64,000 bases of DNA from NCBI RefSeq assembly GCF_965363235.1, contig NC_134846.1, positions 63,477,121 through 63,541,120 on the forward strand, in the 5' to 3' direction. The notes under the pieces are model-generated. The model saw only the letters and a list, made by a program, of their open reading frames with translations, was not told the origin of the DNA and made no database searches. Shown in pieces: positions 21,720 through 59,275 of the stretch (position 1 is its first letter; every line of letters starts with the position of its first letter). Position numbers and translations under genes: made by a program. This stretch comes from Mytilus galloprovincialis (lineage: Eukaryota > Mollusca > Bivalvia > Mytilida > Mytilidae).

Positions 21720-22430
21720 TTTTTCTCTTGATCATGTTAATTCTTAACATGCAAGAGCAAAAATACATCTTAAGGGGGTAGGCCTCAGTAACCCCAAAAT
21801 TTTCCCGTCGTTTAATATTTTTTAAATTTATACCAATGAATAGGTATGCCTCAATACATGTTCTGGACAAGTTTAAACAAAATTGACCGTTTAGTTCTAT
21901 TTTTAGAATTGATTGAATATGGTCAATTTCGGCCATCATTTAAGCCAGTCCAAAATACCAATAGGTAAATATATTCATATATTTGAGAAAATGTACGGCC
22001 TAAATTATGACTGTTACTATTTGATTGTATTATGGTATCATATTCTAAAGTAAATATAACCTATAATTGGCATATGTGATATTTTTTAATGAAATGTAAG
22101 GTAGGAACTAACAGATACATGCAAAACTTTGGTAAGTCTCATTTGACACTTTTTATAAATAAATACATGTGGAAAAATATTTTGTCGTTTAATTTGCATA
22201 TAAAACTACTGGAACACTTATCAGTCATATATTTTTCATATGACAACTTTTTATAAATTTTCACCGTTTGAAATTTTACGAAAAATTTGATCGAAGTGAC
22301 CTAATGGACCCCCTAAAATAGGATTTTTTGAAGAAAATAACCAAAATTGACATCTATAAACCCTCATAGCCATAATTTATGGTATAACAGTTCAAGATGT
22401 TGCTTAACACAATGAATATATATATATGAT
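21720..22430. other. No gene seen
   Basis: AT-rich, with ORFs in several frames but no motif, splice context or repeat match. A pyrimidine-rich TATATATATA patch lies at about 22418-22428. Confidence 0.4.
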
Positions 22431-23039
22431 AATTCCGTTGTTCATTTCAAATAGTATTTATCTTCAAGATGCGGACCCCGGACGTAGAAAAAAAAGGGGG
22501 AGGGTGCCAAGAAAGAAACGTCTTGAGTGGAAGTTTGATAAAGTCTATGCATTTACCGTATAAGTTACTCCGTAAGTGAGTTTGTTTGTGACACATCCTT
22601 CTTCCACTTATGTATTAACTAAGTTACATAGGCCCAAACATAAATAGTGTAAAATTTCGTTTCATCACAATGACATTGGTTTCATTCCCCTGGACTACAA
22701 CCGCTCCGTCATATTTTTTTTACTTGTGTACACCAACAAGGACCCAATCCTTCACTTTCAAAATACTTTCTGTGTGCTAATGTGAGTAAATTGTTAGCTT
22801 TAGCTAGTATTTTGATAGTAGTTGAGATATTACCCACAAGAGCACAACCTGCAATAGGCCGATAATTGCTAGGACTTGAACAGTTTTGAATCTGAAGACT
22901 TCAGTTCAGATTTTGATCCGACTTTTCAGAGTTGCATCCATATGATGATCATAAGATTTTGGTAAGACTGCTGAATTTGTAATCCATTATATCATATTTT
23001 TCAAGTCTGCATGTCCCTTTCTGCATTATTCAAATCTGC

Positions 23040-23085
23040 AACCTGTGTGCTCAAGATGGGGCAAAAAGGGGGGGGGGGGGATAGG
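23040..23085. repeat. G-rich tract
   Basis: A run of eleven or more G bases preceded by GGGGCAAAAAGG and followed by ATAGGGAGG. It is a possible quadruplex-forming site and a likely sequencing-length ambiguity. Confidence 0.7.
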
Positions 23086-23459
23086 GAGGCTTCAATACTC
23101 AATTGATAGGTGTCGCTGTGTTCCTTTTACCCCATCCTTTTCATAAAATTTAGGTTAACAAAAATGTAAATCTTTTCATGTATTGCCTAGGTAAAATGTT
23201 ACCTTTTCCCATATTGTTTGAGTATCCTGTGATGTGTAATGTCATGAATATAGAACATGTAGAAGTGGAAAACCAAAATGAAAAAAATTGGTTGATAACA
23301 ACATGAACACCAATAAAGACAAAGTTATGAAAACTTATTTACCTTATCATATATTTCTGATAGTTTTCTCAACTTATTCACATATTTTCAGACTTGAAAA
23401 GGTGACCTATTCCAGGGGCACGTCCTATCACTTTCCCGATTGAATGGTTTTTCACTAGT

Positions 23460-23602
23460 AATTTTGGGGTCCTTTATAGCTTGTTGTTCGGTGTGAACCA
23501 AGGCTCCATGTTGAAGGCCATACATTACTATATGGTTTACTTTTTTAAATTGTTATTTCGATGGTGAGTTGTCTCAGTGGCCCTTACACCACATCTTTCT
23601 TT
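23460..23602 (+). repeat. Retroposon 3' end (CCACATCTTTC family)
   Basis: TTTTGGGGTCCTTTATAGCT, GTTGAAGGCCATACATTACT and GAGTTGTCTCAGTGGC, then ACACCACATCTTTC: a diverged, 5'-truncated copy of 12900-13062. Confidence 0.65.
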
Positions 23603-24499
23603 AACCATTGTATATATAGAAAGTGACCCCAAGCCTGTCTGCATGAGATCTGATCTAAATGTGTCACTTACCAAGAGAAAAATAAAATATTTTTTTTTAA
23701 ACTGCAGTACAAATGTAAGATATCAACATTGATCAATCAAATTTTTGTTTTCATGGAATTCTTTGAGTAACTGAAACATGAAAAAATGTGAAGCACACTA
23801 TATATTTTATCCTTTAAACAGTGTTTGTGTTTAAAGAGAAAAAGTCAAGAAAACATAACTGAATATACTAATGATATAATTCACCAAACACCCAAACAAC
23901 ATACATACTCATCAAACACCAATTTTTAAAATTAAATTTCCAATTCTCCCCACACTATGATTTGCAGCAGGTCAAGTTTACGAGCTTATTCCATCTACGC
24001 CAGGGACTTACAACCTTACGACTTTTCAAGGTGCGCCAGAGGGTTGCACCCTGTTCTGCAAATCATGTTCTGCTAAAATTAAATGCATGTATTTGATAAA
24101 GCCAAAATGAAATTTAAAAAAATAGAATTCCTAAGTTAGTATGTATGCCATTTGAGAAGGTATAATTTTATTATTTATCATAAAAAAAATATGATTGAAT
24201 GAACATTATAACAAAACTAACTGACAGTAAATTGAGTTCATATCTATCATCAAATCACATTGGCATACAATATATATATATATATACATGATATAGTAAT
24301 TTCATATTTATTACAAAACATGAAACACTCAAACTTCTTGAAATGATTCCAATGTGAAAGTTCATGCTTGCTTGCCTAGAAGTGGTGTGTTAAAAGGACT
24401 TTATAAATATTTTGCCACACACCTTTAGAAGTAGTTTTAAAAAAGTGATCACTTTGCAGTAAAGATATATATACATGTACATACATGCATAAACTTTCC

Positions 24500-24972
24500 A
24501 AAAAAGATGAAACAAGAATGTGTCCACAGTACATGGATGCCCCACTCGCACTATCATTTTCTATATTTAGTGGACCGTGAAATTGGAATAAATTCTCTAA
24601 TTTGGCATTAAAATTAGAATGATCTTATCATAGGGAACATGTATACTATGATTCAAGTTGATTGGACTGCAACTTCATCAAAAACTACCTTGACCAAAAA
24701 ACTTTAACCTGAAATTTGCACTATCATTTTCCATGTTCCGTGAACCGTAAAATTGGGGTCAAAACTCTAATTAGACATTACAATTAGAAAGATCATATCA
24801 TATGGCACATGTATACTAAGTTTCAAGTGGATTGGACTTCAACTTCATACAAAAACTACCTTCACCAAAATCTTTAACCTGAAGCAGGACAGACAGACTA
24901 ACAAACGAATGAACCGAGGGACGAACAGACTTACAGACCAGAAAACATAATGCCCCTCTACTATTTTAGGTG
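24500..24972 (+). repeat. Dimeric dispersed repeat with GGGGCAT ends
   Basis: Two diverged units with a 170-bp offset, each starting GCACTATCATTTTC (24548 and 24718) and containing a CCGTGAA box, ATTAGAA(T/A)GATC, ACATGTATACTA and AAAACTACCTT. The dimer is bracketed by GATGCCCCAC (24536) and its complement GTGGGGCAT (24970), with a tail of ACAGACAGACTAACAAACGA. Non-coding. A family I recognise as common in mussels. Confidence 0.65.
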
Positions 24973-24979
24973 GGGCATA

Positions 24980-25339
24980 CAAATCTAACTGTATTAATGG
25001 TGTCCTGTTAAAATGAATTCTAGTTCTGAGGTTTCCAAATTAGCTGTATAGAAAATTTAATGTGAATATTTCTCAGATAGATCTTTTTGTTTTGAAATAT
25101 GTTTGCTACGAATTAAAGTGCAGTTACTACAAATGTAGTTTATAAAAAAGATTAATCAAGTAAGATATTTAGCTCATAGAAAAGAATAACCAATATATCT
25201 TTTCAAGACAAAACACAATATAAATTGATACATTATAAACCTGATGGTGTACATTATGACAAGTTCAAACATTCTGTGCATGTTAATCTGATAACAGCAT
25301 TCCTGTAACAAAAACTTCTTTCGTCATGACTATTGAAAT
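24980..25339. other. Downstream flank of the transposase-exonuclease gene
   Basis: AT-rich sequence just 3' of the stop codon of the minus-strand gene, presumably its 3' untranslated region. I see no canonical AATAAA on the minus strand in the first 300 bases that I would commit to. Confidence 0.35.
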
Positions 25340-26389
25340 TTACTGTTCAGTTGCAAAAGCAGAAACAAATATAGAGGCAGTTTTGGTAGGAATGTTGAAC
25401 TCTTGAAACAATAATTTAATTCCGTTTGCATCTCTACTGTTAGCTATCTGTAAGTGGGATAAAGATATTCCATTCTTTGCAAGTCTCATACAAGTATCTC
25501 TGCTCACAGTTTTGTTTTGCACTAAACTGTCATAAGTAGATTTGCAACTGCAATAGTAAATGCTATGTAGATCGATATGTTTACAGTTATTCTTCATTTT
25601 TTGGTGAAATAAATGTTGAAGGGACTGTACGTCTTCTGTGGCATTGTGTGCACTGTATTCAATACCAACATACTTTAAAATAAGAGTTGATTGTTTGTAA
25701 TTGTCTACTTCATTTCGGGGGAAAATCCTTTTTGCTAATTTAAGTGTGTCAAGAAATCCTGAAGTAACATTACAAAATGAAGAAAATAAATTGAATTCCT
25801 TCAATTTGTTTGACAAAATTGCCATGTCAAAATTACATATGTTATGTCCAACAAGGATTGGATTTGGAATTGTTTTTAAAAATTCAATAAAATCTAATAA
25901 TGATTCATATTGGGATTTAGTATCCACTTCTTTTCCGTGCACATACATTTTATTTTTGGCCAGACAGCAGGTTATTCCGGTTACTTTTGAGGCTTCAAAT
26001 GAAATATCGCATCTAGGTAAAACGTAAGATTGATATAATTTCTTATCATGTACAGCTGCTATCTGAGTAATATCACTTACTCTACTTAAACCTGTGGTTT
26101 CAAGATCAAAAAATGTGAAGGATTCTGTGCCGTCCAATTTCAATGGCGATGGTATAGTAATGGCCTCAGTTTCTGATAAACCTATTGTTGCAACTTCAGA
26201 TTGATATGAAACCGGTTCATGAATATTTAGTCGCCTTTCTTTCTTATTCCTTTTTTTCTTTAGTTCAGTCCTTTTTTTCTTGAACTCACGACTTTGCCTC
26301 TTAATCTTTCTCTTGAGTTTTTCTGAATCAAGTTTCTTTGCAATACTTTTTGTATATTCTCCAGGTGAAAGAAGTGCAGCTTCATTCAT
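25340..26389 (-). CDS. Exon 8: basic linker and DEDDh exonuclease domain
   Basis: Terminal exon of 349 codons plus stop. The acceptor AATATTTCAG precedes an in-frame ATG, so the frame also stays open 33 codons upstream into the intron. Those codons are not expected in the mRNA. A lysine/arginine-rich segment (KRKIKRQSREFKKKR) may be a nuclear signal. All three Exo motifs of the DEDDh family are intact. The C-terminal 100 residues include YYCSCKS and a helical tail. Confidence 0.88.
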   Translation of the reverse strand: MNEAALLSPGEYTKSIAKKLDSEKLKRKIKRQSREFKKKRTELKKKRNKKERRLNIHEPVSYQSEVATIGLSETEAITIPSPLKLDGTESFTFFDLETTGLSRVSDITQIAAVHDKKLYQSYVLPRCDISFEASKVTGITCCLAKNKMYVHGKEVDTKSQYESLLDFIEFLKTIPNPILVGHNICNFDMAILSNKLKEFNLFSSFCNVTSGFLDTLKLAKRIFPRNEVDNYKQSTLILKYVGIEYSAHNATEDVQSLQHLFHQKMKNNCKHIDLHSIYYCSCKSTYDSLVQNKTVSRDTCMRLAKNGISLSHLQIANSRDANGIKLLFQEFNIPTKTASIFVSAFATEQ

Positions 26390-29300
26390 CTGAAATATTA
26401 TGATGTAAGAATTACAGATTAAATCTTTTATAACTGACACATTTGTACGTGAGGCAAATGTAATGATTATTAAAACTGATGCAAACAAAGCAAAAAATAT
26501 TATGTAGTAAATATTTTAAAGGTTAACCTCAAAAGTTGCAGTTACTGAGTTAGTAAGAATCATATGCTTATACAAAAGCAAAAAGTTTGCTGAATGGTAT
26601 CCCTGGGGGCTACTGACTAACCTTTAAATATAACTATGCCAAATGAAACCCTGTTCTAACTAGTAAACATTGAAAAACATACCCTGTTCTAGACCCCCTC
26701 ACAAAATGTATACCCTGTTCTAGACCGGCTCAAAAAATGTATACCCTGTTCTAGACCCGCTTAAAAAATGTATACCCTGTTCTAGACCCGCTCAAAAAAT
26801 GTATACCCTGTTCTAGACACGTTTTTTTACTACAATCATACAATTCAACAAGGATTAAGAATAAAGCAAAAAAAAAATAATTCTAATCAACTCCTTTTGC
26901 TCCATAAAAAGTTAAATAAGTGGTCATGTTCTAGCCAAATACTTTGTTTAAAAAAGATCCTGTTTTCACCAGCAGGGCATGAAAAAAATACCCTGTTCTA
27001 ACCAGCTGGACATGAAAAAGAAGACCCTGTTCTAACCAGCCGGGCATGAAAAAGGGACCCTATTTTGGGGCACACTCATACCCCTAAAAATAAAGGAAGT
27101 GTTACCACTTCAATTGTAGTAATGCTGATGTAAAACTTTATGAAAATAATTTAATTTTGAATGTAACGTGTCTTCTGATCAGTTGACGTTATTTTTTTAT
27201 GAGCCCATAGACATAATTTAGTCATGTGACCATGACATCATCAATGTTTTTTCATGGTTTTCTACGGTTTAAAATGGAATTTAGAATTAAATTATAAAAA
27301 ATGACTGTAATAAACCTGCTATGCGCGTTATTCAGTGTGCATCAAATTTTTTATGTTATATTTCTTCATAGACAGAAAAAATATTACAGTCATTCCTTAA
27401 ATAAATTGTAAATGATTATGTATATAAAAAAAAATTGTAAAAACAAAATGTGGTATGATTGTCAATAAGACAATATATTGCTAAATTTTAAACAAAGTGG
27501 ATTCAAGTCATTATAGGCATTTTTACAGTTGTCAACAATGAGGATACCAAAACTGTATAGTCGGCTACAAAAGGTAGCAATGGCTTTTCTTAGATTTATC
27601 AAGAATTATGAAAACCTACAAAAATTCACATTTACCTGTTCTAAGTAATTGTAACCTTCATTCTTTTGAAGCACAGCTGATGACACTCTACTTGCCAGGG
27701 ATTGTGAACCACCATAGTGTCTGAAATATAAAAACATGTGTCACTCACATGATATTTTTCATTTACAATTGATGCATCCAATAATACAGCCGTTATACTT
27801 TTGCTATAGTTTTAGAAATTAAAAGTAAAAAATAGCATTTTTTCCCAATGTTTTATTTTTAGCCATGTCTGCCATTTTGGTTTGCAGGCAGGGTCAATGG
27901 ATATATTTTAAAAATCTAAATACTCTAATGATTATTTGTGGCCAAGTTTTCGTTAAATTTGTCTCAGTTGTTTCAGGAGAAGACATTTGTAAAAGTTTTA
28001 ATTTTTTTTACAAGAAATAGTTAACTTTGACCATGTGCATTTTTGTAACGGCGACTTATTTTTAAATCTCACTTTGCTAACATATATTGCTGTTTACAAA
28101 TTATCACTATCTATTATAATATTCAAAATAATAACAGAAAAAAAAATCCTTAAAATTTCTTATTCAGGAGCAACCCTAATAATAGTTCTGGCCATAATAA
28201 AAACATGTGTTATTTCTATTTTTAACTTAACAATATTATAGAAACTTTACTCACTTGGATTTTGGAGCTTTCGTTGCTACAGAATGGTTGAAGCTCTCAT
28301 TAGCCTGTGTGGATCCTAAATTTCTGAGTGAAGATGCTTTGCTCTTATATTTCTCTATAAGATTCTCTAAATCTCTCCTCAAATCTTCACTAATCAGAGG
28401 CTTTCCATTAGGAAGACTTTTATATCTAAATAAACAAAATTTCTTTAAATCTTAAGGTAATTTAATCAAGCTAAACTATAACACAAGTATTACTAATGTG
28501 TTCAATATGGTTGGTATTGACATGAATGTATGTAAAATTTGTATTGCATAAGGATATATGCCCTATCTGCTTATAGTTTGTAATAACAGATTAAGATGAC
28601 ATATGTCATTTAGCTGAATATGATTATTATTTTTTTACATTATGACTAGGTAAAAATGTGTATAGGCCCTGTGTCAAAGACCATACTTTTACATATTATG
28701 TTTTTTTCTCCAATTTGTTATTGGATGGAGAGTTGTCTCATTGACACTCATACCACATCTTCTTATATCTTATATACAATAAATGTTTACATAGTTAATA
28801 ATGTTAGCATTTGTTTGTACAGTTGAACTATAATTATTTTTTTTAAAGTTATTTTTATATGAACTAGTTTTTATACGACCGCAAATTTTGAAAAAATTTT
28901 CGTCGTATATTGCTATCACGTTGGCGTCGGCGTCGTCGTCGTCGTCCGGCGTCCGAATACTTTTAGTTTTCGCACTCTTACTTTAGTAAAAGTGAATGGA
29001 AATCTATGAAATTTTAACACAAGGTTTATGACCACAAAAGGAAGGTTGGTATTGATTTTGGGAGTTTTGGTCCCAACATTTTAGGAATTAGGGGCCAAAA
29101 AGGGCCCAAATAAGCATTTTCTTGGTTTTCGCACTATAACTTTAGTTTAAGTTAATAGAAATCTATGAAATTTTGACACAAGGTTTATGACCACAAAAGA
29201 ACGGTTGGGATTGATTTTGGGAGTTTAGGTCCCAACAGTTTAGGAATTAGGGGCCAAAAAGGGACCCAAATAAGCATTTTTCTTGGTTTTCGCACCATAA

Positions 29301-32300
29301 CGTTAGTATAAGTAAATAGAAATCTATGAAATTTAAACACAAGGTTTATGACCATAAAAGAAAGGTTGGGTTTGATTTTGGGAGTTTTGGTCCCAACATA
29401 ATAAGGGGCCCAAAGGGTCCAAAATTAAACTTTTGTTTGATTTCATCAAAATTGAATAATTGGGGTTCTTTGATATGCTGAATCTAACTGTCATGACTGT
29501 GTATGTAGATTCTTAACTTTTGGTCCCGTTTTCAAATTGGTCTACATTAAGGTCCAAAGGGTCCAAAATTAAACTTAGTTTGATTTTGACAAAAAATGAA
29601 TCAGTTAGGTTCTTTGATATGCTGAATCTAAAAATGTACTTAGATTCTTGATTATTGGCCCAGTTTTCAAGTTGGTCCAAATCGGGGTCCAAAATTAAAC
29701 TTTGTTTGATTTCATCAAAAATTGAATAAATGCGGTTCTTTGATATACCAAATCTAACTGTGTATGTAGATTCTTCATTTTTGGTCCTGTTTTCAAATTG
29801 GTCTACACTAAAGTCCAAAGGGTCCAAAATTAAACTTAGTCTGATTTTAACAAAAATTGAAATCTTGAAGTTCTTTGATATGCTGAATCCAAAAATGTAC
29901 TTAGATTTTTTATTATGGGCCCAGTTTTCAAGTTGGTCCAAATCAGGATCTAAAATTATTATATTAAGTATTGTGCAATAGCAAGTCTTTTCAATTGCAC
30001 AGTATTGCGCTATGGCAAGAAATATCCAATTGCACAATATTGTGAAATAGCAAATTTTTTTTTAATTAGAGTTATCTTTCTTTGTCCAGAATAGTAAGCA
30101 AGAAATATCTAATTGCAAAATATTGTGCAATAGCAAGATTTTTTTTTAATTGGAGTTATCTTTCTTTGTCCAGAATCAACTTAAATCTTTGTTATATACA
30201 ATATACAATGTATATTCACTTTTTACTACCAACTGATAAATTAAAATAATCTTTACCATTCAGTGCTAACAAGCAGTTTTTTTACATCTTAATATTTTAT
30301 GATGTATTTAAATGAGTAGTTATTGTTGCAAACTCCATTAGAAATTTTAATTGAGATTAGTTTTGGAATAAGGGAAAGGGGGATGTGATTAAAAAAATTG
30401 GGTTCAATTTTTCTCATTTGAAATTTCATAAATAAAAAAGAAAATTTCTTCAAACATTTTTTTGAGAGGATTAATATTCAACAGCATAGTGAATTGCTCT
30501 AAGAGAAACAAAAATTTTAAGTTCATTAGAACACATTCATTCTGTGTCAGAAACCTATGCTGTGTCAACTATTTAATCACAATCCAAATTTAGAGCTGAA
30601 TCCAGCTTGAATGTTGTGTCCATACTTGCCCTAACCGTTCAGGGTTCAACCTCTGCGGTCGTATAAAGCTACGCCCTGCAGAGCATCTGGTTGTTTTTTT
30701 AAATTTTCATAACAATTAAAAATTTGCAAAAAGTAAATGACCTAACTGCGAGCAGAAAACCTCAAGTACAAGGGGAGTGTTCCGGGGGTTGGACCCCCTT
30801 TTTTTGGCAGATCAAAGCATTTGAATGGGGGCATATACTTGGAAGCCCCCTTTACTCTGGGTTGGGAACCCCTCATTTTTAAAATGGCTGGATCCACGCC
30901 TGAAAATATTAATGTTTTCAGGTAAAAAAGTGATGTGGTTAGATGTGAATGAGACAGCAATGTTACAATATAAAAAGAACCATAAAAAATCATCATGAGT
31001 CATGCATACTTGAAAGATATAGGATCATCTTTAAACGTACACCAGTCTACTGCACCACACAGTTCATGATCTCCAAAGACATGGGGAACAATTCTGGAAA
31101 GACCCTCATCAATTTGAAGTTCACTACTGCTGTTCTGTGTTATAGCATACATGAAACATCTGTTCAAATAGGGAATTACCTCTCCTGGCTTCAGCTCCTT
31201 GTGCCTACAAAATCATACAATTTATCATTACATCAGTTGTAACTTAAAATCAGGGTGTTTAATGAATAATTAAATTAAAGTTAGTTTGACTAAAACTGCA
31301 CTGGGATGAAAAATCTCTTTTTTATCTAATATTGATTGATTGAACCTAAATAGAACCCCTTTTTTCTGAGAGGAAGAATTTGGTTGATTATATAGGAAAT
31401 CACTGTTGCATGACCAGAGTGTCCCCTCTAAGGCAGTCAGTGGTCCCCTACCTATGAAAATTTCTGGATCCACCACTGGCCCACTGAAATGCCAATCCAG
31501 TGAACATTAACATTTATACATGAAGTGCTCAACAATGAATGTTATAATATGATTTGCTCAACATAGGTGAGGGTGTTGATGAGGGCTTATAGAATAGAAA
31601 ATTATGGGCCAACAAATAAAGAATAGAGAGGTCAGGAATGGACAAAATAATAAAGATTAGGAAATAATGAGGTGCTGAAAAATAAAGATCAGATAATAGA
31701 GAAAATTGCATAAAAAAAAGAATACAGAATTGAAGGATCCCCTTTTAGATCCTCATAGCTATTAAGATAAGAGCACAAAAAAACCAATATGACTGAAAAC
31801 ATAAGTTTCATTACCTTTTAGACAATTCAATCAGTGATTTTGTTATTCCCTTTGTAGTGTGATTTTGGTCGTCCTTTTTCTTCAAGTTTTCAAAGTCCAG
31901 TTTCAGTTTTAACATGGTAGTAGAATCATTGTCAGCATGAATTACATCAATCGGGCATTCATTATCATTCATCTTATGTGCCATGGAAACAGCCATATCT
32001 GGTTCCATAGACTTGCTAGACCCATACCAATTTCTACAGCAGTCATGACTTGGAACTGTGTCTTTCTTTCCCTCATGATGCTCACAAAATTTACAACTTT
32101 TACTTCTGATATCATAACAGGTCACTTTCCCTGTTTGCTTTCCTATCATTGAAGCATGTCCTGTAATTCAATTTGAAATTACATAGCTTGGTAGAAATTT
32201 TATTTGTTAGAAATAGACTAAATATTTATTTAAAATATGAATAGAAAATCATGTAGGATTGGATCAGTCAGCCAGAAAGAATAAAACTCAATAAATCTAA

Positions 32301-35300
32301 AATAGAGACTTTATACATGTATATATACTTAGTACTTCTATGAAGTATAATAATTCTCTATAACAGTAGAAATATTTGTCAACATGAATCAATAGTCTAA
32401 ATTTGTATATAACATCTGATTCTGTATTAAATATTTTGAACTTGAATCTAAATGCATCTGACCAGCTGGTAGTACTACTAGTATACTGATATATAAGTGA
32501 GAATCTCATACATGAAACATATATATATATATTGTATGTCATATAATGTGAAATATTGAATGAACATGTAGTTTGTTGTATACCCATCAGGGGCGGATAC
32601 AGCCATTTAAAAAAAAGGGGGGGAATTGGTTCCAACCCCTGGATACCCCAATGTCCATTAATAATTGAAATTTATATATATACTATAGTATTTGTATTGG
32701 ATTGTGATAACAGGTTTTGATCTTGTTAGACAATTTCACCAATGAAATTGTACCAAAAAATATAAATAATGCAAAGTTAAATAAAGTGCAGAACTTTTTC
32801 TTATTTAGCCATCATTGCCATGGCGTAGTCAGTTTATCTTTGATCTATGGGTTTTAATGTCCCCCTCCGGTATCTTTCATCCCTCTTTTACAAAGTCAAG
32901 TTTACCTGTTAAGCTATTGTAATTAAATCCGGATCCCCGTTTCTGCCAACCTGCATCAAAACTGACCTCAAGCTCCAACTCCTAAAATTCATGATTTTTT
33001 TTTAAATTAGTCATTGCAATAAGGTAGTTAACAATTTTTTTAAATTTCTTAAATTTATATTGTTCATTTTAGCTTCATATAAAAGAATTATAAAAAAAAA
33101 AAAAAAACAGTCAAAAATTAACAAATTTTATTAATCCTTTTGAAATAAATTTATTGATCTGTTTCAGCCCAATATTTAACATATATATATATATATATAT
33201 ATTTATTATATATATATACATATATATTTATTATATATAGAAGTCTAAAAAAAAAAGACCAACCAGTAAATATTCTGAATTGTACCAGATCGTCTAGAAT
33301 AGACGATACTCATGCAGATAAGGAAAAAAATTATAAGTTTATATGTTTTGTGTACAAGATATTTGCAGTATAGGCTTTGCTCATTGTTTAAGGCCGTAGG
33401 GTGACCTATGGTTGATAATTCCTGTGTAGTTTGGTATTCTGTGGAGAGATGTCTCATTGGCTACAACTTTTTCTTATTTTGATATTATGTATAAGTCAGC
33501 TTTGAAAGAGGTCTAGCAGTAGATTAAAATGTAAAGTCAAATTTATTATAATATGATATACATGTAGTATTACCTTATCTGCAGAAATTTCCTTTTCCAG
33601 TTGTTGGGCATTCTTACATGATTCTTCAGCAGCAGACACAAATATTTTTCCAATTTTCTTCTCATGTTTTTGGAAGCAAGATTTACTCATCACTGGCAAG
33701 TTACATTCTGTCAGAAAGTTTCTTATTTGTGCATATCCTAGGCCAGCATGTATCATTCCTACATGAAAGAAAACATTTTATGAAACAAAAATTACATTTA
33801 AATTGGTTTTAGCTTATTGACATGAGTAATTTCATAACATAAATAGAAGGAAATTGATTCATTTTGAATTAATAGTACAAAACGTACCTGATTACATATA
33901 ACTCTTTGTTTTGTACAAAATGTAAAATTGAGAAATGAAGTTGGGAATGTATTAAAGCCCCACCATAGAGCAGACAAGAGCCGAAGGCCACCAATGATTC
34001 TTCAATGTAGTGAGAAACTTCTGTACCCGGAGGCGTCCTTCAGCTGGCCCCTAAGCAAATATGTACATGTATACTAGTTCAGTAATAATGGACTTCATAA
34101 ATAAGTTTGAATTCATATATTTTACAATTATTGTAATTTCTTGACATTTTAGATTATAGATGACTATGTGTTATGGGTTTTGTTCATTGTTGAAGGCTGT
34201 TCAGTGACCCACAGCGGCTAACTTTTACATCCTTTGGTCTTTGATTGAAAGTTATCTTTTAGGCAATCATACCACATCTTCTAATTTTTATAATTATTCT
34301 CATAAGACTAGCAATAAGTACAATAGCATTTAGTGGCAGATCCAGAACTTTATGCAAGAGGGGGGGGGGCTGACTTACATAAGGGGACCACTCCAGTCAC
34401 ACTTCAGTGCTTCTCTATATTATCAACCAAATTTTTTCCCATGTAAGGCCTCCCCCCCCCCCCCTTCTGAATTCTCATTTGGCATTTCATTGATAATACC
34501 AATTAATTTGATACAAATTAAATGAGAACATCTATATCAAAGGCAAGAATAAATACAAATATTTGTATAATATAAATGTGTTTCCAAATTTTACATGATT
34601 AAGTTTTTGGTGTCAAAACTATCAGAAAATGACATAGTTTTATTTCAGAAGCTGCTCATTGTTGAAGGCTGTACGGTTAATACCTATAGTTTTTTTAATG
34701 TTTGTCGTCATTTTGGTCTTTTGTGGATAGTTGTCTCATGGGCAATAATACCACATCTTCTATTTTATATGTATACAATGTTTATGAATTTGATATGATA
34801 TATATATATATATGTTTGTATGTTTTGTATTGCTTGGTGTCAATCCGGTAATTTTGAATTTCAAACAAACAAAAATTACTTACTAATTACTTAGGGATGA
34901 AAAAAAAATATGGAAATTAAGTTTTTTATCCAACATTTAACTTTTGATGTGGTCCCTTACATGTACTAACTGTTTGCAACATTAAACCTTGATTTGATAT
35001 TTTGTCATACATAATATATATTTATTTATGTGATGTAATATCATGTTAATGCGGTGGAAGACATCATTATACTTGTATTGATTTTCCTGATTTAATAAAA
35101 ACTTAGAAACTTGAACAAAATAAAAGGACAAGTTTTAAAGAGTATTAAAAGAAAACTGGCAGTAACATATTTCAAAAAATGTTGAAACTGGCCTGAGACT
35201 ACTATAAATAGTAGTATTAGAACTGGCACATAAATTTTGGTAAGCTTTGAAACTTTTGAAACTTTGAAAATGAAATTCCTTGTAGCACCTAACTTTTGAA

Positions 35301-37964
35301 ACTTTAAAAATAAAATTCCTTGTAGTTTCACCTTTTTTCATTTTACATACAACTAGAGTTATATAAAAAGTTGTGTTATACAGTCGAAATCACGTCATCA
35401 TGAGAAAGTAAATGAAAATTTTTGGAATTTAGGCAATTCTGTTCTTCCAACTTCTAATAAAGCAACACATATAGGAATATGTCGTACAGACGATGATTTA
35501 TGTAAAGCTACAATAGATGAGAATTTAAAGAAAGCAAGAAGGACACTTTATAGCTTAATGGGGGTTGGACTTTATGGCGAAAATGGTCTAGATCCACAAA
35601 CCTCAATGTCAATTATGAATACTTATATTATACCAATAATGTTTTATGGATTGGAAATAGTGATCCCTAGAGGAAGATGTTTAGAAAATTTAAATATACA
35701 ATTTAAGAAATTCTTGAAACAATTGTTATCTTTACCAAAAACAGTAGCAGATCCTGCTATATATATGATTTCTGGGATGTTACCTGTAGAAGCTCAAATA
35801 GATGTAAAAATTTTAACTTTTTATGGAAATATTACTAGACAAGGAAAAAATTCTATTGAATGGCAACTAGCGGAAAGGCAATTAAATGTTAAAGCTATTA
35901 ATAGTAATAGTTGGTTTAGTTTATTGAGGAAAATATTTTTGAAATATGAACTTAATGATCCTGTACAATACTTACTTAATCCAATTAGTAAATGCCAATG
36001 GAAAAGGGAAATAACTTCCAAAGTTCAAAAATTCTGGATTGTGAAGATACTGAATCAAGCAAAACTTTATACCAGTTTAAAATACTTATCGTTGATATAT
36101 AAACCAGGACAATGTCATCCTATTGCAAATACAAATACTATGAATTCAAGGGAAATTATTAGAATTCCTACAAAATTGAAAATAGCTACTGGGAGTTATA
36201 TTCTGCAAACAGTTAGAGCCAAATTTATAAGTAATACAGAACTGTCTATATGCAAACTGTGTAATGAAACAGAAGAAACTTTACCACATTTTTTATTAAC
36301 GTGTAAAATATTAGAAGATATTAGAAAACCAATTTTGGAAGATTTAATTAATTCCTGTAGTGAAGAGTTAGCTGTCTTTAATATGAAAGATGAACATTTT
36401 GACATTTTACAACTGATCATAGATCCCTTTACTTACATGACAATGTTAAGTTTTCCTCAGTTAAGAAATGAAAAAGTTTTTAAAGTGATACAGAACATTA
36501 TAGATCCAAAATGTAGACGATTATGTTACAATCTCCATTGTGAAAGGTATAGACTGTTGCAATTAGATGATATAAAGAAAAAGAAAAGAAAGTAGATAAT
36601 AACATTTTATGAATCCTAAGTGACGATTGGTTGTCTACTCTTAAACAGTGATATCTTTTGATAAATATTTTAGATTTTAAAATATTTAATGAGTTGATGA
36701 TATTGACATTAAGCCCAATTTTATCGTCAAGAATAAATTGTACAATGTAAATAGTGTATAGTGATATTGGTGGAAGATATATATTTCTATTCATATTGTG
36801 AAATCCATTACTCGGAAGAGGTGTGCCTACACTGGCAGAATTTATATAACAGATTACAGATATATGTTATGCTGTTACACAATTTAAACAGTAGACTAGG
36901 GATTAAATTTTAGAATGGCTAGACATAAATAAGAATAACAAATGGAAGTTTTTAACAAACTTGACTGGCTATACAGCCCTTGCACGGTTGATCAAAATTC
37001 CGGCAACTTGACAAAGGAAGTTTATTATTTTTTCATTTATGTAAACAATATACTACACATTAATAACATTCATTGCAATTATTAATTTAAATATAAACTT
37101 TGAAAAATCATTTTATCTTTTTGATACTCGAAAATATCTTTTCTTATAGATAACCTATTGTAAAAGACTTTTTTGAAACGAAACATAATTTGGAGGACAA
37201 TTTCAAATGGGAAAAAATCAGGGGAAGTAACTATACACACAATTATGTATTTAAAATTTATAGAAGTCAATCTCATCTTCTCTAAAATATTATCTACAGA
37301 TACAATCTAAATAGATATGTATGCAACATTTTTCTACTTTTGTGGGGTGAAATAGGAAATGTACACGATAATGTACAAGAGTTGTATTAGATGTAATAAA
37401 CAGATAGCGATAAAACGGGAAAAAAAGGTGTGCTTACTGCTTAGCTCGTAGTACGCTGTTTACAATTACATGCATTGGGGGTATGTCCTTTATCTTTACA
37501 AAAATAGAAATAAGTTTTGATTAAAAAAGTATTGATATATTTAATTATCTACCTATAACTATCTTGGCAGTGATATTGAATGATCCAGTTGGACCGACTT
37601 TTCCAGTTGGCACATCTGTCACTGTTCGGCATTCTTGGTTGGTGCACATTATGTGGAGATAACTGCCAAATCCTATTGTTCTTTCATGGATGGTATCATG
37701 CAGGTGCAAAGGAACATTGCACCTACAACAGTACATCTTTTCCGCCAGGACACCCAATTCTACGATGCGTCTGCCAACTTGCCAATCATTGTCTATCACC
37801 ATTCCTTCGATTTCATCCTCCACTTCCTCTTCAGCCCCGATATCGATGTAATTATGTTTTACATAAGTATGGTCATTAGTGTTTTGTAAGTTTATAGACC
37901 TGTTTAAATTTTTAAAAAAGTTCGAGCGTTTAGATTTTATTTTCGATTGGAACAAACCTCTCAT
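25340..37964 (-). CDS. Mutator-like transposase domain / DEDDh exonuclease fusion protein, 8 exons
   Basis: Joining complement of 37964-37553, 33758-33574, 32981-32906, 32160-31815, 31204-31010, 28425-28255, 27720-27636 and 26389-25340 gives 839 codons plus stop with every intron GT-AG and all phases matching. Order: acidic N-terminus; C79-x2-C82 and C107-x4-C112 zinc-type motif; Mutator-like domain with VSFDAGWQKRG (D208), SKSMEPDM, HADNDSTT (D301/D303), GDHELCGAVDWC and QANESFN (E448); basic helix (about 505-545); then a DEDDh exonuclease with FFDLETTG (D585, E587), GHNICNFD (D678) and HNATEDV (H738, D743). Known of the families: the first domain occurs in many invertebrate proteins labelled Mutator-like transposase; DEDDh proteins are 3'-5' DNA or RNA exonucleases. 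Inferred: an intact, possibly domesticated transposase-derived nuclease. Target and role are unknown. An in-frame TGA at 37976-37974 supports the start. Confidence 0.87.
26681..26835. repeat. 31-bp minisatellite in intron 7
   Basis: ACCCTGTTCTAGACC recurs at 26681, 26712, 26743, 26774 and 26805, an exact 31-bp period after the first unit. A related looser array follows at about 26955-27065, with units of about 32 bp containing CCCTGTTCTAACCAGC and GGGCATGAAAAA. Confidence 0.85.
26950..27070. repeat. Related minisatellite, second array in intron 7
   Basis: Three to four degenerate units built on CCTGTTCTAACCAGCNGGGC and ATGAAAAA. It shares the CCCTGTTCTA core with the 31-bp array 120 bp away, so both probably grew from one seed sequence. 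Confidence 0.75.
27146..27400 (-). mobile_element. Palindromic MITE-like element, copy 2 (inverted, one arm deleted)
   Basis: It is the reverse of 44620-44920. The order is tail (AATTTTGAATGTAACGTGTC, TTCTGATC), body (CATAGACATAATTTAGTCAT), then the palindrome remnant ending GACAGAAAAAATATTACAGT and CATTCC. Most of one palindrome arm is missing, which would stop hairpin formation. It lies in intron 7. Confidence 0.75.
27636..27720 (-). CDS. Exon 7 of the transposase-exonuclease gene
   Basis: 85 bp. Acceptor TATATTTCAG|AC, donor GAACAG|GTAAAT. It encodes HYGGSQSLASRVSSAVLQKN and EGYNYLEQ, the end of the transposase-type domain, and leads directly into MNEAALLSPGEYTK. Confidence 0.87.
28255..28425 (-). 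CDS. Exon 6 of the transposase-exonuclease gene
   Basis: Acceptor TTATTTAG|AT, donor TCCAA|GTGAGT. It encodes YKSLPNGKPLISEDLRRDLE and on to LGSTQANESFNHSVATKAP. E448 in QANESFN is the best candidate for the third catalytic acid. Phase 2 in and out. Confidence 0.87.
28700..28770 (+). repeat. Retroposon 3' end fragment
   Basis: GGAGAGTTGTCTCATTGACA, then CTCATACCACATCTTCTTAT: only the last 70 bases of the family at 12725-13062. In intron 5. Confidence 0.65.
28871..30666. mobile_element. 1.8-kb element with 13-bp terminal inverted repeats
   Basis: It begins TTATACGACCGCA (28871-28883) and ends with the exact complement TGCGGTCGTATAA (30654-30666). Just inside the left end is a hairpin (ATACGAC...AATTTT / AATTTT...GTCGTAT) and a CGTCGT-rich patch. 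The body is two sets of tandem repeats. Three units of about 165 bp carry TTTTCGCAC..., AAATCTATGAAATTT and TTGATTTTGGGAGTTT. Then four alternating units of about 125 bp carry GGTTCTTTGATAT and GGTCCAAAATTAAACTT. There is no transposase. The 174-codon minus ORF at 29513-30037 only mirrors the repeats. I recognise it as an abundant non-autonomous mussel element. It fills most of intron 5. Confidence 0.8.
30770..30912 (-). repeat. Short dispersed fragment with GGATCCACGCC end
   Basis: GGGGGTTGGACCCCC, TTTGGCAGATCAAAGCATTT, then AAAATGGCTGGATCCACGCC. The same terminal theme (a 'GGATCCNCC' end beside runs of G or C) recurs at 31330-31490, 32583-32650 and 34325-34470. Confidence 0.5.
31010..31204 (-). 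CDS. Exon 5 of the transposase-exonuclease gene
   Basis: Acceptor GATTTTGTAG|GC, donor TTCAA|GTATGC. It encodes HKELKPGEVIPYLNRCFMYA through IVPHVFGDHELCG and VDWC. The H-x2-C-x5-C arrangement (H386, C389, C395) recalls the C/D-2-H insert of Mutator-type transposases. Confidence 0.87.
31330..31490 (-). repeat. Short dispersed fragment with GGATCCACCAC end
   Basis: CCCCTTTTTTCTGAGAGGAA to AAATTTCTGGATCCACCACT. Related in its ends to 30770-30912. Lies in intron 4. Confidence 0.45.
31815..32160 (-). CDS. Exon 4 of the transposase-exonuclease gene
   Basis: Acceptor GAATTACAG|GA, donor TAAAAG|GTAATG. It encodes HASMIGKQTGKVTCYDIRSK, the cysteine cluster CKFCEHHE, the GSSKSMEPDMAV block and HADNDSTTML, the presumed second acid. 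Phase 1 in, 2 out. Confidence 0.88.
32583..32650 (+). repeat. Short dispersed fragment
   Basis: CATCAGGGGCGGATACAGCC, then a GGGGGGG run and GGTTCCAACCCC. This resembles the reversed end of 30770-30912. In intron 3. Confidence 0.45.
32906..32981 (-). CDS. Exon 3 of the transposase-exonuclease gene
   Basis: A 76-bp exon, too short for ORF calling. Acceptor AATTTTAG|GAG, donor AACAG|GTAAAC. It encodes ELELEVSFDAGWQKRGSGFN plus YNSLT. The aspartate in SFDAGW is the presumed first catalytic acid (D208). The phases (0 in, 1 out) join the neighbours exactly. Confidence 0.87.
33178..33240. repeat. (TA)n microsatellite
   Basis: Alternating TA runs broken by two TTTATTA interruptions, in intron 2. 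Confidence 0.85.
33365..33475 (+). repeat. Retroposon 3' end fragment
   Basis: GGCTTTGCTCATTGTTTAAG, GCCGTAGGGTGACCTATGGT and GAGATGTCTCATTGGC match 12955-13045, truncated at both ends. In intron 2. Confidence 0.65.
33574..33758 (-). CDS. Exon 2 of the transposase-exonuclease gene
   Basis: Acceptor TTTCATGTAG|GA, donor GATAAG|GTAATA. It encodes GMIHAGLGYAQIRNFLTECN and LPVMSKSCFQKHEKKIGKIF, which is the DNA-binding-like start of the family domain. Phase 1 in, phase 0 out. Confidence 0.85.
33934..34098 (-). mobile_element. Fragment of the RT-bearing retroelement UTR
   Basis: On the plus strand GTTGGGAATGT, GAGCCGAAGGCCACCAATGA, CCCGGAGGCGTCCTTCAGCT and GGCCCCTAAGCAAATATG parallel 17355-17490. 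This is a third, very short copy of the element at 1-1105. In intron 1. Confidence 0.7.
34150..34285 (+). repeat. Retroposon 3' end fragment
   Basis: GATGACTATGTGTTATGGGT, GTTGAAGGCTGTTCAGTGAC and GGCAATCATACCACATCTTC match 12945-13062. In intron 1. Confidence 0.7.
34325..34470 (+). repeat. G- and C-run bounded fragment
   Basis: TTTAGTGGCAGATCCAGAAC, a run of nine G, then CTGACTTACATAAGGGGACC and a run of about fourteen C at 34452. Its ends resemble the GGATCC-ended fragments in introns 3-5. Confidence 0.45.
34650..34775 (+). repeat. Retroposon 3' end fragment
   Basis: CTGCTCATTGTTGAAGGCTG, then GGTCTTTTGTGGATAGTTGT and AATAATACCACATCTTCTAT. A close match to 12965-13062. In intron 1, 360 bp after the previous copy. 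Confidence 0.7.
35400..36595 (+). CDS. LINE ORF2 C-terminal region, intact frame (5'-truncated)
   Basis: The Met-initiated frame starts at 35558, but homology-like sequence runs on upstream in the same frame (WNLGNSVLPTSNKATHIGIC then KKARRTLYSLMG), so the Met is internal. The product corresponds to the region after the RT palm of a LINE: LDPQTSMSIMNTYIIPIMFY, LKQLLSLPKTVADPAIYMIS, and a zinc-type motif CKLCNETEETLPHFLLTC near the C-terminus. No catalytic RT residues are present. The frame is unbroken for about 395 codons, unusual among the mobile remnants here, so the insertion is young or the sequence is constrained. It sits in intron 1 of the transposase-exonuclease gene, on the opposite strand. 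Confidence 0.72.
36596..37550. other. 3' flank of the LINE fragment and rest of intron 1
   Basis: AT-rich sequence with no exon-like block. The first few hundred bases are probably LINE 3' untranslated sequence, but I see no poly(A) or microsatellite tail marking its end. Confidence 0.4.
37553..37964 (-). CDS. Exon 1 of the transposase-exonuclease gene
   Basis: It encodes residues 1-137 plus one base. It holds an acidic patch (IGAEEEVEDEIEG), then GRRIVELGVLAEKMYCCRC, the second cysteine pair MCTNQEC and VPTGK, all typical of the N-terminus of this family. The donor is ATAG|GTAGAT, phase 1. The Met start is fixed by an in-frame TGA four codons upstream. Confidence 0.85.
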
Positions 37965-37976
37965 TGTTGTTAATCA

Positions 37977-38570
37977 GCGTTTGTCACAGTATCCAAGGTA
38001 AACGATCTGTGTACACAGATGCTTGAAATTAAGGGCCGTAATAAAACGCATCAATGACACCAAGTGTATGTGTACGAGTTATTCCCCTTACCCCAGGTCT
38101 ACCACCTTAAGGTTGACTTTTTTTCTTTCATCTGTTTATTAAATATTCAGCCCGGAGTGTATATAGTAATAATGTTAAACTATATCTTTCATTGTTGTGA
38201 ACAAATTAGTAGTAGACTGGTTCTTTATTTAAAGAGGGTATATGCTATGATTTTCGGTGTGAACAATAAATGTTTTAGAATAACCTTTATTACTTACTTG
38301 AACAAAACTAGAACAAAAGTTTGGTAAGCCAAAACAATCAAATGCTTATTAGGATGCATAATGAATGAACCTAAACTGATTAGCTTTCAACCTTCTAGTG
38401 TCAACTTGGGATTTGAAATTTGGAACCTTAGTTTAAGCACTATAGCATAATTGTTTTACTGTGCTTATCTTATCAAGAGGGTTTTGTCCTTTCACTATAC
38501 CTATTGGGAAAATGATTCAGCATGATTACAGCTTGAATTCATCTCTACAAACTGATCAACTGATATTAAT
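37977..38570. other. Upstream region of the transposase-exonuclease gene
   Basis: This holds the presumed promoter and 5' UTR on the minus strand. I see no clear TATA box or initiator that I would mark. A GTGTACACAG palindrome lies near 38012. The plus ORF at 38064-38327 is AT-driven. Confidence 0.35.
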
Positions 38571-54097: not shown

Positions 54098-55612
54098 AAA
54101 GGGGCACTAGCTGTCAAATTCATGTTCACCGATTTGACTCAAATTCTCATATTTGATTCATAACAATGTCAAACATTTATCTAAAGGTCTAACACAAACA
54201 ATTTACAGGGCATAGGCTCGATAATATGTAGCTTCATTACGCGTGTATTTTAGTCTAGACGGCATCTTATAACTATCGAGTTGACCTCCAATGTCCGATG
54301 ATATAAGCGATTTAAACATAAATATAGGTATAAATGGATTAAGCGAACTCATGTAATTGATTTTTCTAGGTCTTTTCAATTTCATATTATAGATTAAAAA
54401 TATGTGTTATCATCGTTTTAGCTATATAATATATATTTTTGTGAATGGAATAAGTCAATCAAATGATTTACCCTTTGTTTCACTTTCAAAGTTGACATTC
54501 TTTTCCTTTAAATAACTTTACACACACGATTACGTAGACTTACTATATATTATTCATTTAAAATGTCAACTTGATTTTAATTATTGTCCTGTAATATGGC
54601 ACTTCTGTGGTGATTGTAACACCAGAAAAATAGAGAAAATACAGGAGCGTGCCCTAAGATTTATATATGAAGACTATTGTAGTACTTATCAATAACTGTT
54701 AATTAAATCAAAATTACCAAGCTTAGAAATCAGAAGAATTAGAATGATAGCAATAGAGGTACGTATATACAATTATTAATAAACAATGTCCATTACATCT
54801 ACATGAACTTATTGAAATGTAATTACTCTTTTAGAAATGACAACATAGCAGATGTTCCCAGGGTAAGAACAACTACCCATGGGCTACACTCATTTAGATA
54901 TGCAAGAGCCAAACTCTGGAACGAACTGCCAAATAAGATGAGGGAAGAAATGCCATTGGGTCAGTTTAAAAGCTTGGTTGGTAATTGGGAGGGCAGTTCG
55001 TGTCAGTGTTCCTCCTGCAGATCTCAGTGAGCTGTAGATCAGTTTATTTATTTATCTTGTATACTCTGGCTTTTAAATTATTAGGCATAATTTTTTATTT
55101 GTGTTCTAAATGCTTGAATTACTTTTAGTGCTTTATAATAGCTATTGCATGAATGATAGTTTATCTGCATTTTATGTTTGCTTATATGCTTTAATTGTGC
55201 TTATTAATTGCTTTGCTTGATAACATTATTTATTTTGCATGATGTGCTTTATGTTTTATGTGTTTTATGTATTGTGCTCGTCTTATATGTATGTCGGATA
55301 AAAGCTCTACAGAGCATATGTTGTATTGTTATATGTATAACCGACTTTAAATAAATCTTTTATGCTTTATGCTTTATGCTTTATGCTTTATGCTTTATGA
55401 TTCAAGCGTTATCCATCTCTAGCTAAGGGGTTGAATTAAAAAGTGAATACGGATTGGATGAGGTCGAATTTTTCACTTGCAAGTGAATAATTCATCAATT
55501 CATCATGTGTCTTAGTTATTTAAAAAAAAGAACAATACTGGCTGCTAAAAGCGAATAAATATATCACTCTTTCGCTTTCATTAATGATAGAACAAAAAAA
55601 CTAATATAAATA
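54098..55612 (+). repeat. Roughly 600-bp dispersed repeat, copy C, split by a LINE
   Basis: 54098-54560 follows copy A (6600-7060) block by block. 55395-55612 follows its last third (AAGTGAATACGGATTGG, GGCTGCTAAAAGCGAATA, TTAATGATAGAAC). The LINE fragment 54565-55398 interrupts it. Contains the CACTTGCAAGTGAATA palindrome shared with copy B. Confidence 0.65.
54565..55398 (+). pseudogene. LINE (jockey/CR1-like) ORF2 C-terminus, 5'-truncated
   Basis: The translation shows WHFCGDCNTRKIEKIQERAL then RFIYEDYCSTY, stop, then SLEIRRIRMIAIEV, a frame break, and FRNDNIADVPRVRTTTHGLH, FRYARAKLWNELPNKMRE. These are the usual last 150 residues of invertebrate jockey/CR1-type ORF2. At least one stop and one frameshift make it dead. 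The 3' UTR ends in a (CTTTATG)n tail at 55356-55399. It inserted into the repeat at 54098-55612. Confidence 0.7.
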
Positions 55613-55617
55613 AATAA

Positions 55618-56591
55618 GATCAACCCACATAAAGCCACCGGCCCAGATAACACCAGTGGCCGCTTACTGAAAGAAATGCAGACAGAAATTGCACCAATTC
55701 TATGCTTAATTTTTAACAAATCTTACAATACTGGTATTACACCTAACGACTGGAAACACGCTAGAGTCGCACGTACATATAAAAAGGGGGATAACCATAA
55801 ACCGGTCAATTATAGACCTATCTCATTAACTTGTATATTCTGCAAGTTAATGGAACACATAGTAACATCACATATTATGAAACATCTCGAATCAAACATC
55901 TTGTATGACCTCCAACATGGCTTTCGGCACTCTTGATATTGCGAGACATAACTTTTCTCCTTCATCTAAGAACTTCAATCCACAAACAATTCAAATACAC
56001 AAACAAACCTTGTAATAATGGACTTCGCGAAGGCCTTTAATAAAGTTCCGCATCGTCACTTAGTTACTTTACAAATTACACTACTAAATATTTTGGCATT
56101 AATGGAAACACTTTAAACTGGATCTCTGCATTTCTCTCCGATCGAACCCAAACAGTTGTTCTGGATGGAAGATCATCAAGCACAGTCCCAGTCACCTCTG
56201 GGGTTCCACAAGGTACTGTCTTAGGTCCAGTATTATTCTTGGCTTATATTAATGACCTTCCAGACTACCTTACACATAGAAAACTAAGATTACTTGCTGA
56301 TGACAGCATCATATATATGCCAGTTAAATCCCAGAGTGACTGTCTAAAACTGCAAGCTGACCTTGATGCAGCTGCAAAATGGGAGGAGGACTGGATGATG
56401 GCCTTCCACCCAGACAGTGTAATGTTCTCTCTGTCACAACTAAACGTCAACCTTTACAACATAATTAAACTCTTCACAATCATATTTTAGAATCTGTTAC
56501 ATCTGCTAAGTACTTACATTACAATCAAACCTTAAATAGGACAAACACATAGATGACAATATCTCGAAAGCCATCAAAACACTCGGCTTCC
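55618..56591 (+). pseudogene. LINE reverse transcriptase fragment (jockey/CR1-like)
   Basis: Starting at NPHKATGPDNTSG the RT motifs appear in order: WKHARVARTYKKGD, NYRPISLTC, LVIMDFAKAFNK (catalytic Asp of motif A), GVPQGTVLGPVLFLAYINDL (motif B) and LLADDSIIY (motif C, the two catalytic Asp). A stop follows FRHS at 55936, and at least two frameshifts break the frame. Homology ends at SKAIKTLGF near 56591, where a minus-strand LINE begins. A second copy of the same family lies at 59404. Confidence 0.75.
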
Positions 56592-57669: not shown

Positions 57670-59275
57670 CTAAAAATACTGTTTTGGCTTATCTTCTTCT
57701 GTTGAATGTTGAGGAAGGTTCATTGAAGGATGGTCAACATGTTGATTATTAGGAACTGTTATTTCAGTGTCAGGAGTTGCAGTAATTGTTGGTGTTTCTT
57801 TTAGTTTTTGTTCTTCATTTAGCAGAGACTCTGGATTTGTAAGTTTATCAAATGCTTGGGTCAGTTTAATTTCTGTTTCGGCATGACTTAGCGGACTTGA
57901 GCTACCTTCTGAGTTGGACTTTTCTTTTCTTTGCCCATTATCACTGTGTCTTTCTACTGATATTTTGTTATGGTAATAGAGATTACTATTCTGTTGATAA
58001 GGTGGTGGTGGCACTCTCAGCAGTCCTTGTCTTAGTAGATCATCTTCATGCACTGAGTTGTAGTGTTATGGATCAATTTGACTGACTTGGTCTTGCCTTG
58101 AATAAAACTGGAGTTGACCGTTTAAATAAGATTGACCTTGTCCATTAGTATAGGGATCATTTTGATGTCGACTTTTTCCAGAGTTGTACCCTCTTGTATC
58201 ATTTTGCTGATGTTGTTCAGAGTTATACCCTCTTGGATCATTTTGAAGATGTTGATTTTGTCCAGAGTAATACCCTCTTTGGTCTTTTTGTTGTTGCAGA
58301 TGTGGTCCAGAGTTAAATCTTCTCAGATGATTTTGGTGAATTTGATTTTGCCCTGAGTTATATGGATACCCTCTTGGATCATTTTGTTGATGTTGACTTT
58401 GCCAAGAGTTCAAACATCCTGGGTCATTTTGATGTTGTTTTTGATTTTGTCCAGAGTTAAACCCTCTTGGATCAGCTTGATGTTGGCTTTGTTCAGAGTT
58501 ATACCCTTTTGGATCCATTTGATGTTGATTTTGTCCAGAGTTATACCTTCTTTGGTCATTTTGATGTAGAATTTGTCCAGAGATATACCATCTTGGATCT
58601 GTTTGATGTTGGATTTGTCCAGAGTTATACCCTCTTAGATCCATTTGATGTTGATTTTGTCCAGAGTTATACCTTCTTTGGTCATTTTGATGTAGAATTT
58701 GTCCAGAATTATACCTTTGGTCATTTTGATGTAGAATTCGTCCAGAGATATACCCTCTTGGATCAGTTTGATGTTGGATTTGTCCAGAGTTATACCCTCT
58801 TGGATCCATTTGATGTTGATTTTGTCCAGAGTTATATCTTTATAGCTGCTTTAGCCTCATATCCATCATTTGCCCATGCATTTCTTGTTTTATCTGTTTT
58901 TCAAGCTCATCTCTCATTTGATCTATATTGCTTCTCTTCAGATTACCTTGTTCTATATATGGTTGCCTTTTCATGCTATTGATGTTATCTGCTGGCTGTC
59001 CATTACTTTGAATGATCTCCGTGTTTTTCTTTAGTAAATCTATTGTTTTGTCTTGATTCTTAATGCGCTGTTCTAATGAGCTTATATAAGCTATCTGTTC
59101 TAATTCAAGTTTCCGGTTTTGCTGGTTTTTCTTGTTGCTTCTTTTAACCGTTTGTTTCTGGTTCTGTTTATCTATATTTCTATTGTTTCCATATGCACTT
59201 AAAATAGCACCTTCCAATGGCTGCTTTTAAAACTGAGGTTTGCTCCTCCACAGGGTGCAGAGATTGTCTATTCAT
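57670..59275 (-). pseudogene. LINE ORF1 with a long QN-rich tandem peptide repeat
   Basis: From an ATG at 59275 (MNRQSLHPVEEQTSVLKA) a frameshift near 59218 leads into one continuous frame to the stop at 57670, broken only by two in-frame TAA codons (58840-58842 and 58066-58068). Order: coiled-coil-prone segment LEQRIKNQDKTIDLLKKN; then about sixteen units of 13-17 residues on the theme DPRGYNSGQNQHQ; then a C-terminal part VHEDDLLRQGLLRVPPPPYQ and an acidic tail. It lies directly upstream of the endonuclease on the same strand, so it is the ORF1 of that LINE. Nucleic-acid binding or particle assembly is the usual ORF1 role; no RRM or CCHC motif is seen. Confidence 0.65.
58066..58830. repeat. 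39-51-bp coding minisatellite inside ORF1
   Basis: Units with the plus-strand string TTTGTCCAGAGTTATACC recur about every 39-51 bp. Length changes are multiples of three, so the peptide frame survives. Long ORFs on the plus strand (58384-58982) are mirror readings. Confidence 0.85.

Follow-up and report, generated by a model that had tools for sequence, protein, structure and literature searches.

Transposons of the Kolobok superfamily have been characterized by their TTAA duplications, their 5'-RR / YY-3' termini and a C/DxxH motif, and the lineages of the superfamily differ, in the sections of the survey drawn on here, in their accessory enzymes, which comprise a lambda-type exonuclease, a DEDDh exonuclease, a homing endonuclease and a RecQ helicase (Kojima and Bao, PMC9587614). 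The name KolobokD was introduced in 2022 for molluscan, arthropod and cnidarian families that carry a DEDDh exonuclease, and a role for that exonuclease in transposition is, in the same sections, a proposal of these authors (PMC9587614). The stretch of Mytilus galloprovincialis DNA analysed here, 64,000 nucleotides long and called the window below, holds a gene that is very probably the only one detected in a DNA transposon of the KolobokD type and that would act by the cutting and trimming mechanism set out below. The assignment to KolobokD is drawn from the agreement of the TTAA, the end bases, the C/DxxH motif, the CCHC finger and the DEDDh domain with the published description; the gene is intact and an ordinary representative of the lineage named in 2022.

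The predicted gene lies on the minus strand and consists of eight exons that encode a frame of 839 amino acids followed by a stop; GT-AG boundaries at seven of seven introns and consistent phases bear out the gene structure that a first-pass annotation of this DNA had put forward, and the nine catalytic residues named there are all found at the numbers it gave. Exon 1 (37553-37964) encodes residues 1-137, among them the N-terminal portion of PF20700, exon 3 (32906-32981) encodes the first catalytic Asp, D208, exon 4 (31815-32160) encodes a CCHC finger (C247, C250, H263, C265), the second Asp (D301 or D303) and the C/DxxH motif D322-Q-N-H, exon 5 (31010-31204) encodes a possible second finger (H381, H386, C389, C395), and exon 6 (28255-28425) encodes the catalytic Glu, E448; the roles of these acids in a transposase are putative, being assigned by their positions in the frame. 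Exons 2 (33574-33758) and 7 (27636-27720) are placed by the gene model and by alignment with a sister family, group B, that is described below. Exon 8 (25340-26389, with the stop at 25340-25342) encodes a basic linker, the complete DEDDh set (D585, E587, D678, H738, D743) and a PML_C helical tail. Four Pfam profiles match the protein above cut-off: PF20700, labelled 'Mutator', at residues 64-395 (2e-82, with the whole profile covered), RNase_T at 583-747 (1.1e-10), an Exuperantia RNase H-like profile at 584-722 and PML_C at 772-823 (3.2e-9).

These matches agree with the earlier claim of an in-frame fusion of transposase and exonuclease. The alternative that the model has joined two neighbouring genes by chance, one for a transposase and a separate one for an exonuclease, is conceivable in that exon 8 starts with ATG and might yield a short protein of its own, but two relatives in the same genome hold both domains in a single uninterrupted ORF. 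These ORFs, of 682 residues at C11:81273300-81275400 and 675 residues at C9:24012800-24014900, start shortly ahead of the first catalytic Asp, extend to the tail and match RNase_T, the Exuperantia-like profile and PML_C as well as PF20700, the last at profile positions 145-357 and 142-357, respectively; since this coverage is partial, the N-terminal part of PF20700 must be outside the ORFs, and since the first Asp and the tail share one ORF in both relatives, the fusion is not an artefact of the splice model. Two intron-bearing group B elements match the window gene at each of its exons and in unchanged order, apart from one extra intron, which also argues against two separate genes. So does the arrangement across the genome (1.38 Gb searched, in 331 contigs), where a transposase match is found within 15 kb upstream on the same strand for at least 62 of 116 exonuclease matches, the window copy among them, at a median distance of 3550 bases, downstream for one and on the opposite strand for none. 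The figure of 62 is a lower bound because only the best candidates were scored, and group B copies are counted among the 54 matches without an upstream transposase, yet both of the copies that were fetched carry one; the entries used for the count were all 116 for the exonuclease, together with 87 of 87 and 73 of 114 from two further match lists, the 41 entries left out belonging to tandem clusters. The two-gene explanation is thus extremely improbable, and the uninterrupted ORFs already appear to have largely refuted it.

The fused gene lies within a transposon that extends, with its TTAA target duplication, from 21770 to 38110 on the minus strand (16341 bp, a length inflated by nested inserts). 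The first-pass annotation had reported no terminal inverted repeats, which is incorrect: they are present at 21770 and 38110, outside the interval 25340-37964 that it described. A search for group B ends found two matches, TTAAGGGGGTAGGCCT at 21770 and TTAAGGTGGTAGACCT, which is on the minus strand, at 38110. The 3' end of the element (21770-21785, plus strand), placed by homology to other copies, consists of TTAA and a 12-bp terminal inverted repeat, and the 5' end (38095-38110, minus strand) consists of a 12-bp repeat, identical to that of the other end at 10 of 12 positions, and TTAA; the TTAA sequences occupy 21770-21773 and 38107-38110, and GG stands inside the TTAA at both ends. Matches to the end consensus, taken alone, are at chance level (11 compared to 8.76 expected), and the score of a direct alignment of the two window ends is reached by 219 of 500 shuffles. 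Because the consensus matches are no better than chance, the ends were tested against homologous copies. When the 150 bases inside each window end are compared with the corresponding end of the group B copy on C14, the scores are 66 against a shuffle maximum of 51 and 56 against 43, with none of 500 shuffles reaching the score at either end, and for the crossed comparisons the score is reached by 55 and 345 of 500 shuffles. Two relics also bear on the boundaries: one on C12 begins exactly at 38110 and is 91.6% identical over 801 columns, and one on C13, 89% identical, reads CTAAGGGG and stops at 21775, at most five bases from the left end. The homology to the group B ends, the start of the C12 relic and the stop of the C13 relic together define the element as 21770-38110, so that each window end rests on one relic in addition to group B; one of the DNA searches used a query ending at 38110, and its matches are uninformative on that boundary.

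The features of the element are those of Kolobok. Its target site duplication is the 4-bp TTAA, the GG at both ends conforms to 5'-RR / YY-3', the acids D208, D301 or D303 and E448 are accompanied by the C/DxxH motif, and the candidate finger H381, H386, C389, C395 would be the zinc finger expected between that motif and the last Glu. The two features specific to KolobokD, a CCHC finger downstream of the first catalytic Asp and a DEDDh (DnaQ) exonuclease joined to the transposase, are likewise present, the latter with its RNase_T match and five residues. The term 'Mutator-like' used in the first-pass annotation accordingly holds as the Pfam label of PF20700, but the features of the element place it in the Kolobok superfamily.

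Mobility is evident in group B. Between its copies on C14 and C4, identity is 93-95% over 10.3 and 10.6 kb, the sequences flanking the two copies are unrelated, and both copies carry TTAAGGGGGTACC at one end and its inverse at the other, with TTAA at both ends in both copies; group B is demonstrably a mobile sister family, and the same genome contains further groups of near-identical copies. For the window element itself, DNA searches of the genome gave incomplete relatives that are 74-95% similar and no near-identical copy, and its own recent mobility is therefore no more than possible. What had been named in advance as the mark of an active transposon, near-identical copies bearing both terminal repeats and target duplications, exists in group B (93-95%) but was not found for the window copy. 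In the C12 relic the 551-base 5' end is 95% identical to the window element, exon 1 contains three stops, and exons 2 and 4 are absent from the stretch examined; a relic on C7, 83-85% identical, has stops and frameshifts in exon 8; and the C13 relic (3' part only) gave no coding match across 20 kb of sequence. Further pieces of the window element were matched at C11:31581044 (88%), C9:31980030 (91% over 209 bases), C9:68107345 (74%) and C11:34346986 (95% over 0.9 kb). The window frame is intact, in contrast to both relatives examined in their coding part (C12 and C7), and the window copy belongs to an old subfamily in which it is perhaps still autonomous.

An intact frame among broken relatives could also be read as a sign of domestication, in which an old KolobokD copy would have been retained by the host as a nuclease, working for instance on the ends of DNA or RNA or countering other mobile elements, while the transposon ends have not yet decayed. 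The Ka/Ks ratio of 0.08 between the window and C12 in exon 1 (12 synonymous and 4 nonsynonymous changes, three stop codons excluded) might be taken in the same sense, but low ratios are also found in mobile group B, where the exonuclease gives 0.14-0.18 in three pairs, and Ka/Ks consequently cannot separate domestication from ordinary transposon life. Both ends and their TTAA, moreover, persist in the window element. The first-pass annotation leaned towards domestication because terminal repeats were thought to be missing; with both ends and the TTAA in place this leaning loses its support, and the option it had mentioned besides, an unusual autonomous element, is favoured by the complete TTAA-bounded ends and the mobile sister family. 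Domestication is accordingly judged improbable, and the gene is taken as that of a KolobokD transposon.

The ratios in group B point clearly to purifying selection on the nuclease half, and hence to retention of the nuclease for as long as the element is active. For two parts of exon 8, comparison of the window with C7 gives 0.39 and 0.29 (two and no stops excluded). Other close pairs of exonucleases have few changes, with ratios of 0.52 for L011/L012 (three changes), 0.32 for L012/L020, 0.29 for L017/L018 and 0.18 for L031/L034 (five changes), two nonsynonymous changes only in L011/L013 and no changes in L024/L025, and distant pairs are saturated. Among the 16 copies in A1, D188, H248 and D253 (exon 8 numbering) are present in all, and in the 14 that cover the first motif the Glu is kept in 14 and the Asp in 11, the changed copies being L018, L019 and L021.

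Several repeats were observed in and around the transposon. A LINE-type fragment that is foreign to it lies in intron 1 (35366-36861, plus strand), assigned to this type by eye with a zf-RVT match below cut-off; it lies antisense to the gene and contains a 412-residue open frame, seven other copies are 99-100% identical over the full insert, and its insertion is very recent. A second foreign insert of about 1.8 kb in intron 5 (28873-30690) is absent from the C12 relic and is rich in GTCGTCGTC-type repeats, and a 480-bp repeat at 24510-24984, in the 3' part of the transposon, has more than 30 genome matches about 90% alike among the matches listed. Elsewhere in the window there are a 257-residue frame of RGYNSGQNQHQ-type repeats at 58066-58839 (minus strand) and, assigned by eye, LINE-type reverse-transcriptase-like frames at 55610-56490 and 59460-60490 (plus strand).

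As to mechanism, the DDE domain would recognize the inverted ends, cut there and rejoin the element at TTAA, while the tethered exonuclease would trim or degrade the free 3' ends produced by those cuts, whether at the break left in the donor or on by-products; the tail, predicted to be helical, may bind nucleic acid. The presence of a different accessory enzyme in each of several Kolobok lineages, as listed in the parts of the survey cited above, suggests by analogy that end processing matters in the superfamily.

The interest of the window gene lies in its nuclease, whose nearest solved relative is Plex9.1, which keeps its active-site residues and which carries the C-terminal domain of PML. 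A profile built from 16 mussel copies and searched against the PDB returned Plex9.1 first (4.4e-49), followed by two chains named exodeoxyribonuclease III (9l8b and 9l85), Exuperantia (3e-13), PolC (4.1e-9) and TREX1 (0.015). Plex9 is a vertebrate family linked to restraining transposable elements. Structure prediction gives a compatible picture: exon 8, as modelled by AlphaFold2 (mean pLDDT 86.4), is closest to DEDDh exonucleases, with Plex9.1 as the best structural match (E 2.5e-16, 38% identity) followed by Exu and then TREX1, an order that VIA-align reproduces. The mussel nuclease thus stands closer to Plex9.1 of zebrafish than to TREX1, and the distance between their values within one profile marks it as a predicted catalytic DEDDh exonuclease resembling Plex9. 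A match of the tail to PML_C was obtained in eight of eight copies tested (limit E 1), above the Pfam cut-off in the window protein, five other exonucleases and the 682- and 675-residue ORF proteins and below it in L024 (23.1 compared to 27.1 bits); the seed of PML_C may contain transposon sequences, in which case the match is less independent but still points to PML homology. Structure comparison of the predicted tail identified no fold; it may correspond to the SAM-like helical tail that follows the exonuclease in PXL and Exu.

The direction of descent can be stated only tentatively. A tree was built over 158 sites from 29 mussel exonucleases and five solved chains; in it Plex9.1 and two further solved chains fall among the mussel lineages, with weak backbone support (15 to 62), and the AU test does not reject a single clade of mussel copies (p 0.444, or 0.449 when Exu is left out). 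It is possible, although we would not favour it over the contrary, that vertebrate Plex9, the PML-I exon 9 domain and perhaps insect Exuperantia descend from an exonuclease and tail of KolobokD type by host capture; the wide distribution of KolobokD in the published survey, as far as the sections cited show, makes such capture plausible (PMC9587614). If this is true, hosts took over a nuclease from a mobile element, in vertebrates it came to restrain retrotransposons, and KolobokD is the relative of PXL and Exu that has stayed mobile and catalytically complete. The mussel nuclease makes it possible to test phylogenetically how the exon 9 domain of PML originated. In a literature search that left most subscription papers outside and is to that extent weak evidence, no link between Kolobok and PML was found, the two co-occurring only in an unrelated review with 'PML' in a reference title, and exuperantia, PML and exonuclease occurred together only in the PXL preprint (PMC12934764), without 'transpos'; the name KolobokD occurred in a single paper.

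Compared with known systems, the window element shares with published KolobokD, as portrayed in the sections cited, the TTAA duplication, purine-rich 5' ends, C/DxxH, the CCHC finger after the first Asp, the DEDDh exonuclease and molluscan occurrence, and similarity to exuperantia and TREX is noted there as well (PMC9587614). PML, Plex9 and a PML_C tail go unmentioned in those sections, the comparison being one of descriptions rather than of consensus sequences. Two other PF20700 proteins of the same genome, L001 and L006, which were the two tested, also combine the transposase with a C-terminal nuclease, but one of YqaJ / alkaline exonuclease type rather than DEDDh, and they fit KolobokE, the lineage with a lambda-exonuclease-like nuclease in the cited parts of the survey. 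Head-to-tail clusters of PF20700, with units mostly 3.6-5.1 kb apart, were observed at G000 C12:64934696-64990401, C61 and C219 and further at C11:77878388-77911131 and C2:54270267-54294758; they are possibly akin to the KolobokP multimers described in the same parts (PMC9587614). Zebrafish Plex9.1 (PDB 9MRC, 9MRD) differs from the window protein in that its solved chain is the exonuclease alone, without a transposase. The PXL domain of PML-I exon 9 (PMC12934764, from the portion of the preprint available) and Drosophila Exuperantia have, like the mussel protein as predicted, an exonuclease fold followed by a helical tail, and the mussel tail matches the PML_C profile; the active sites are lost, according to the same portion, in PXL and Exu, whereas the mussel protein keeps all five DEDDh residues.
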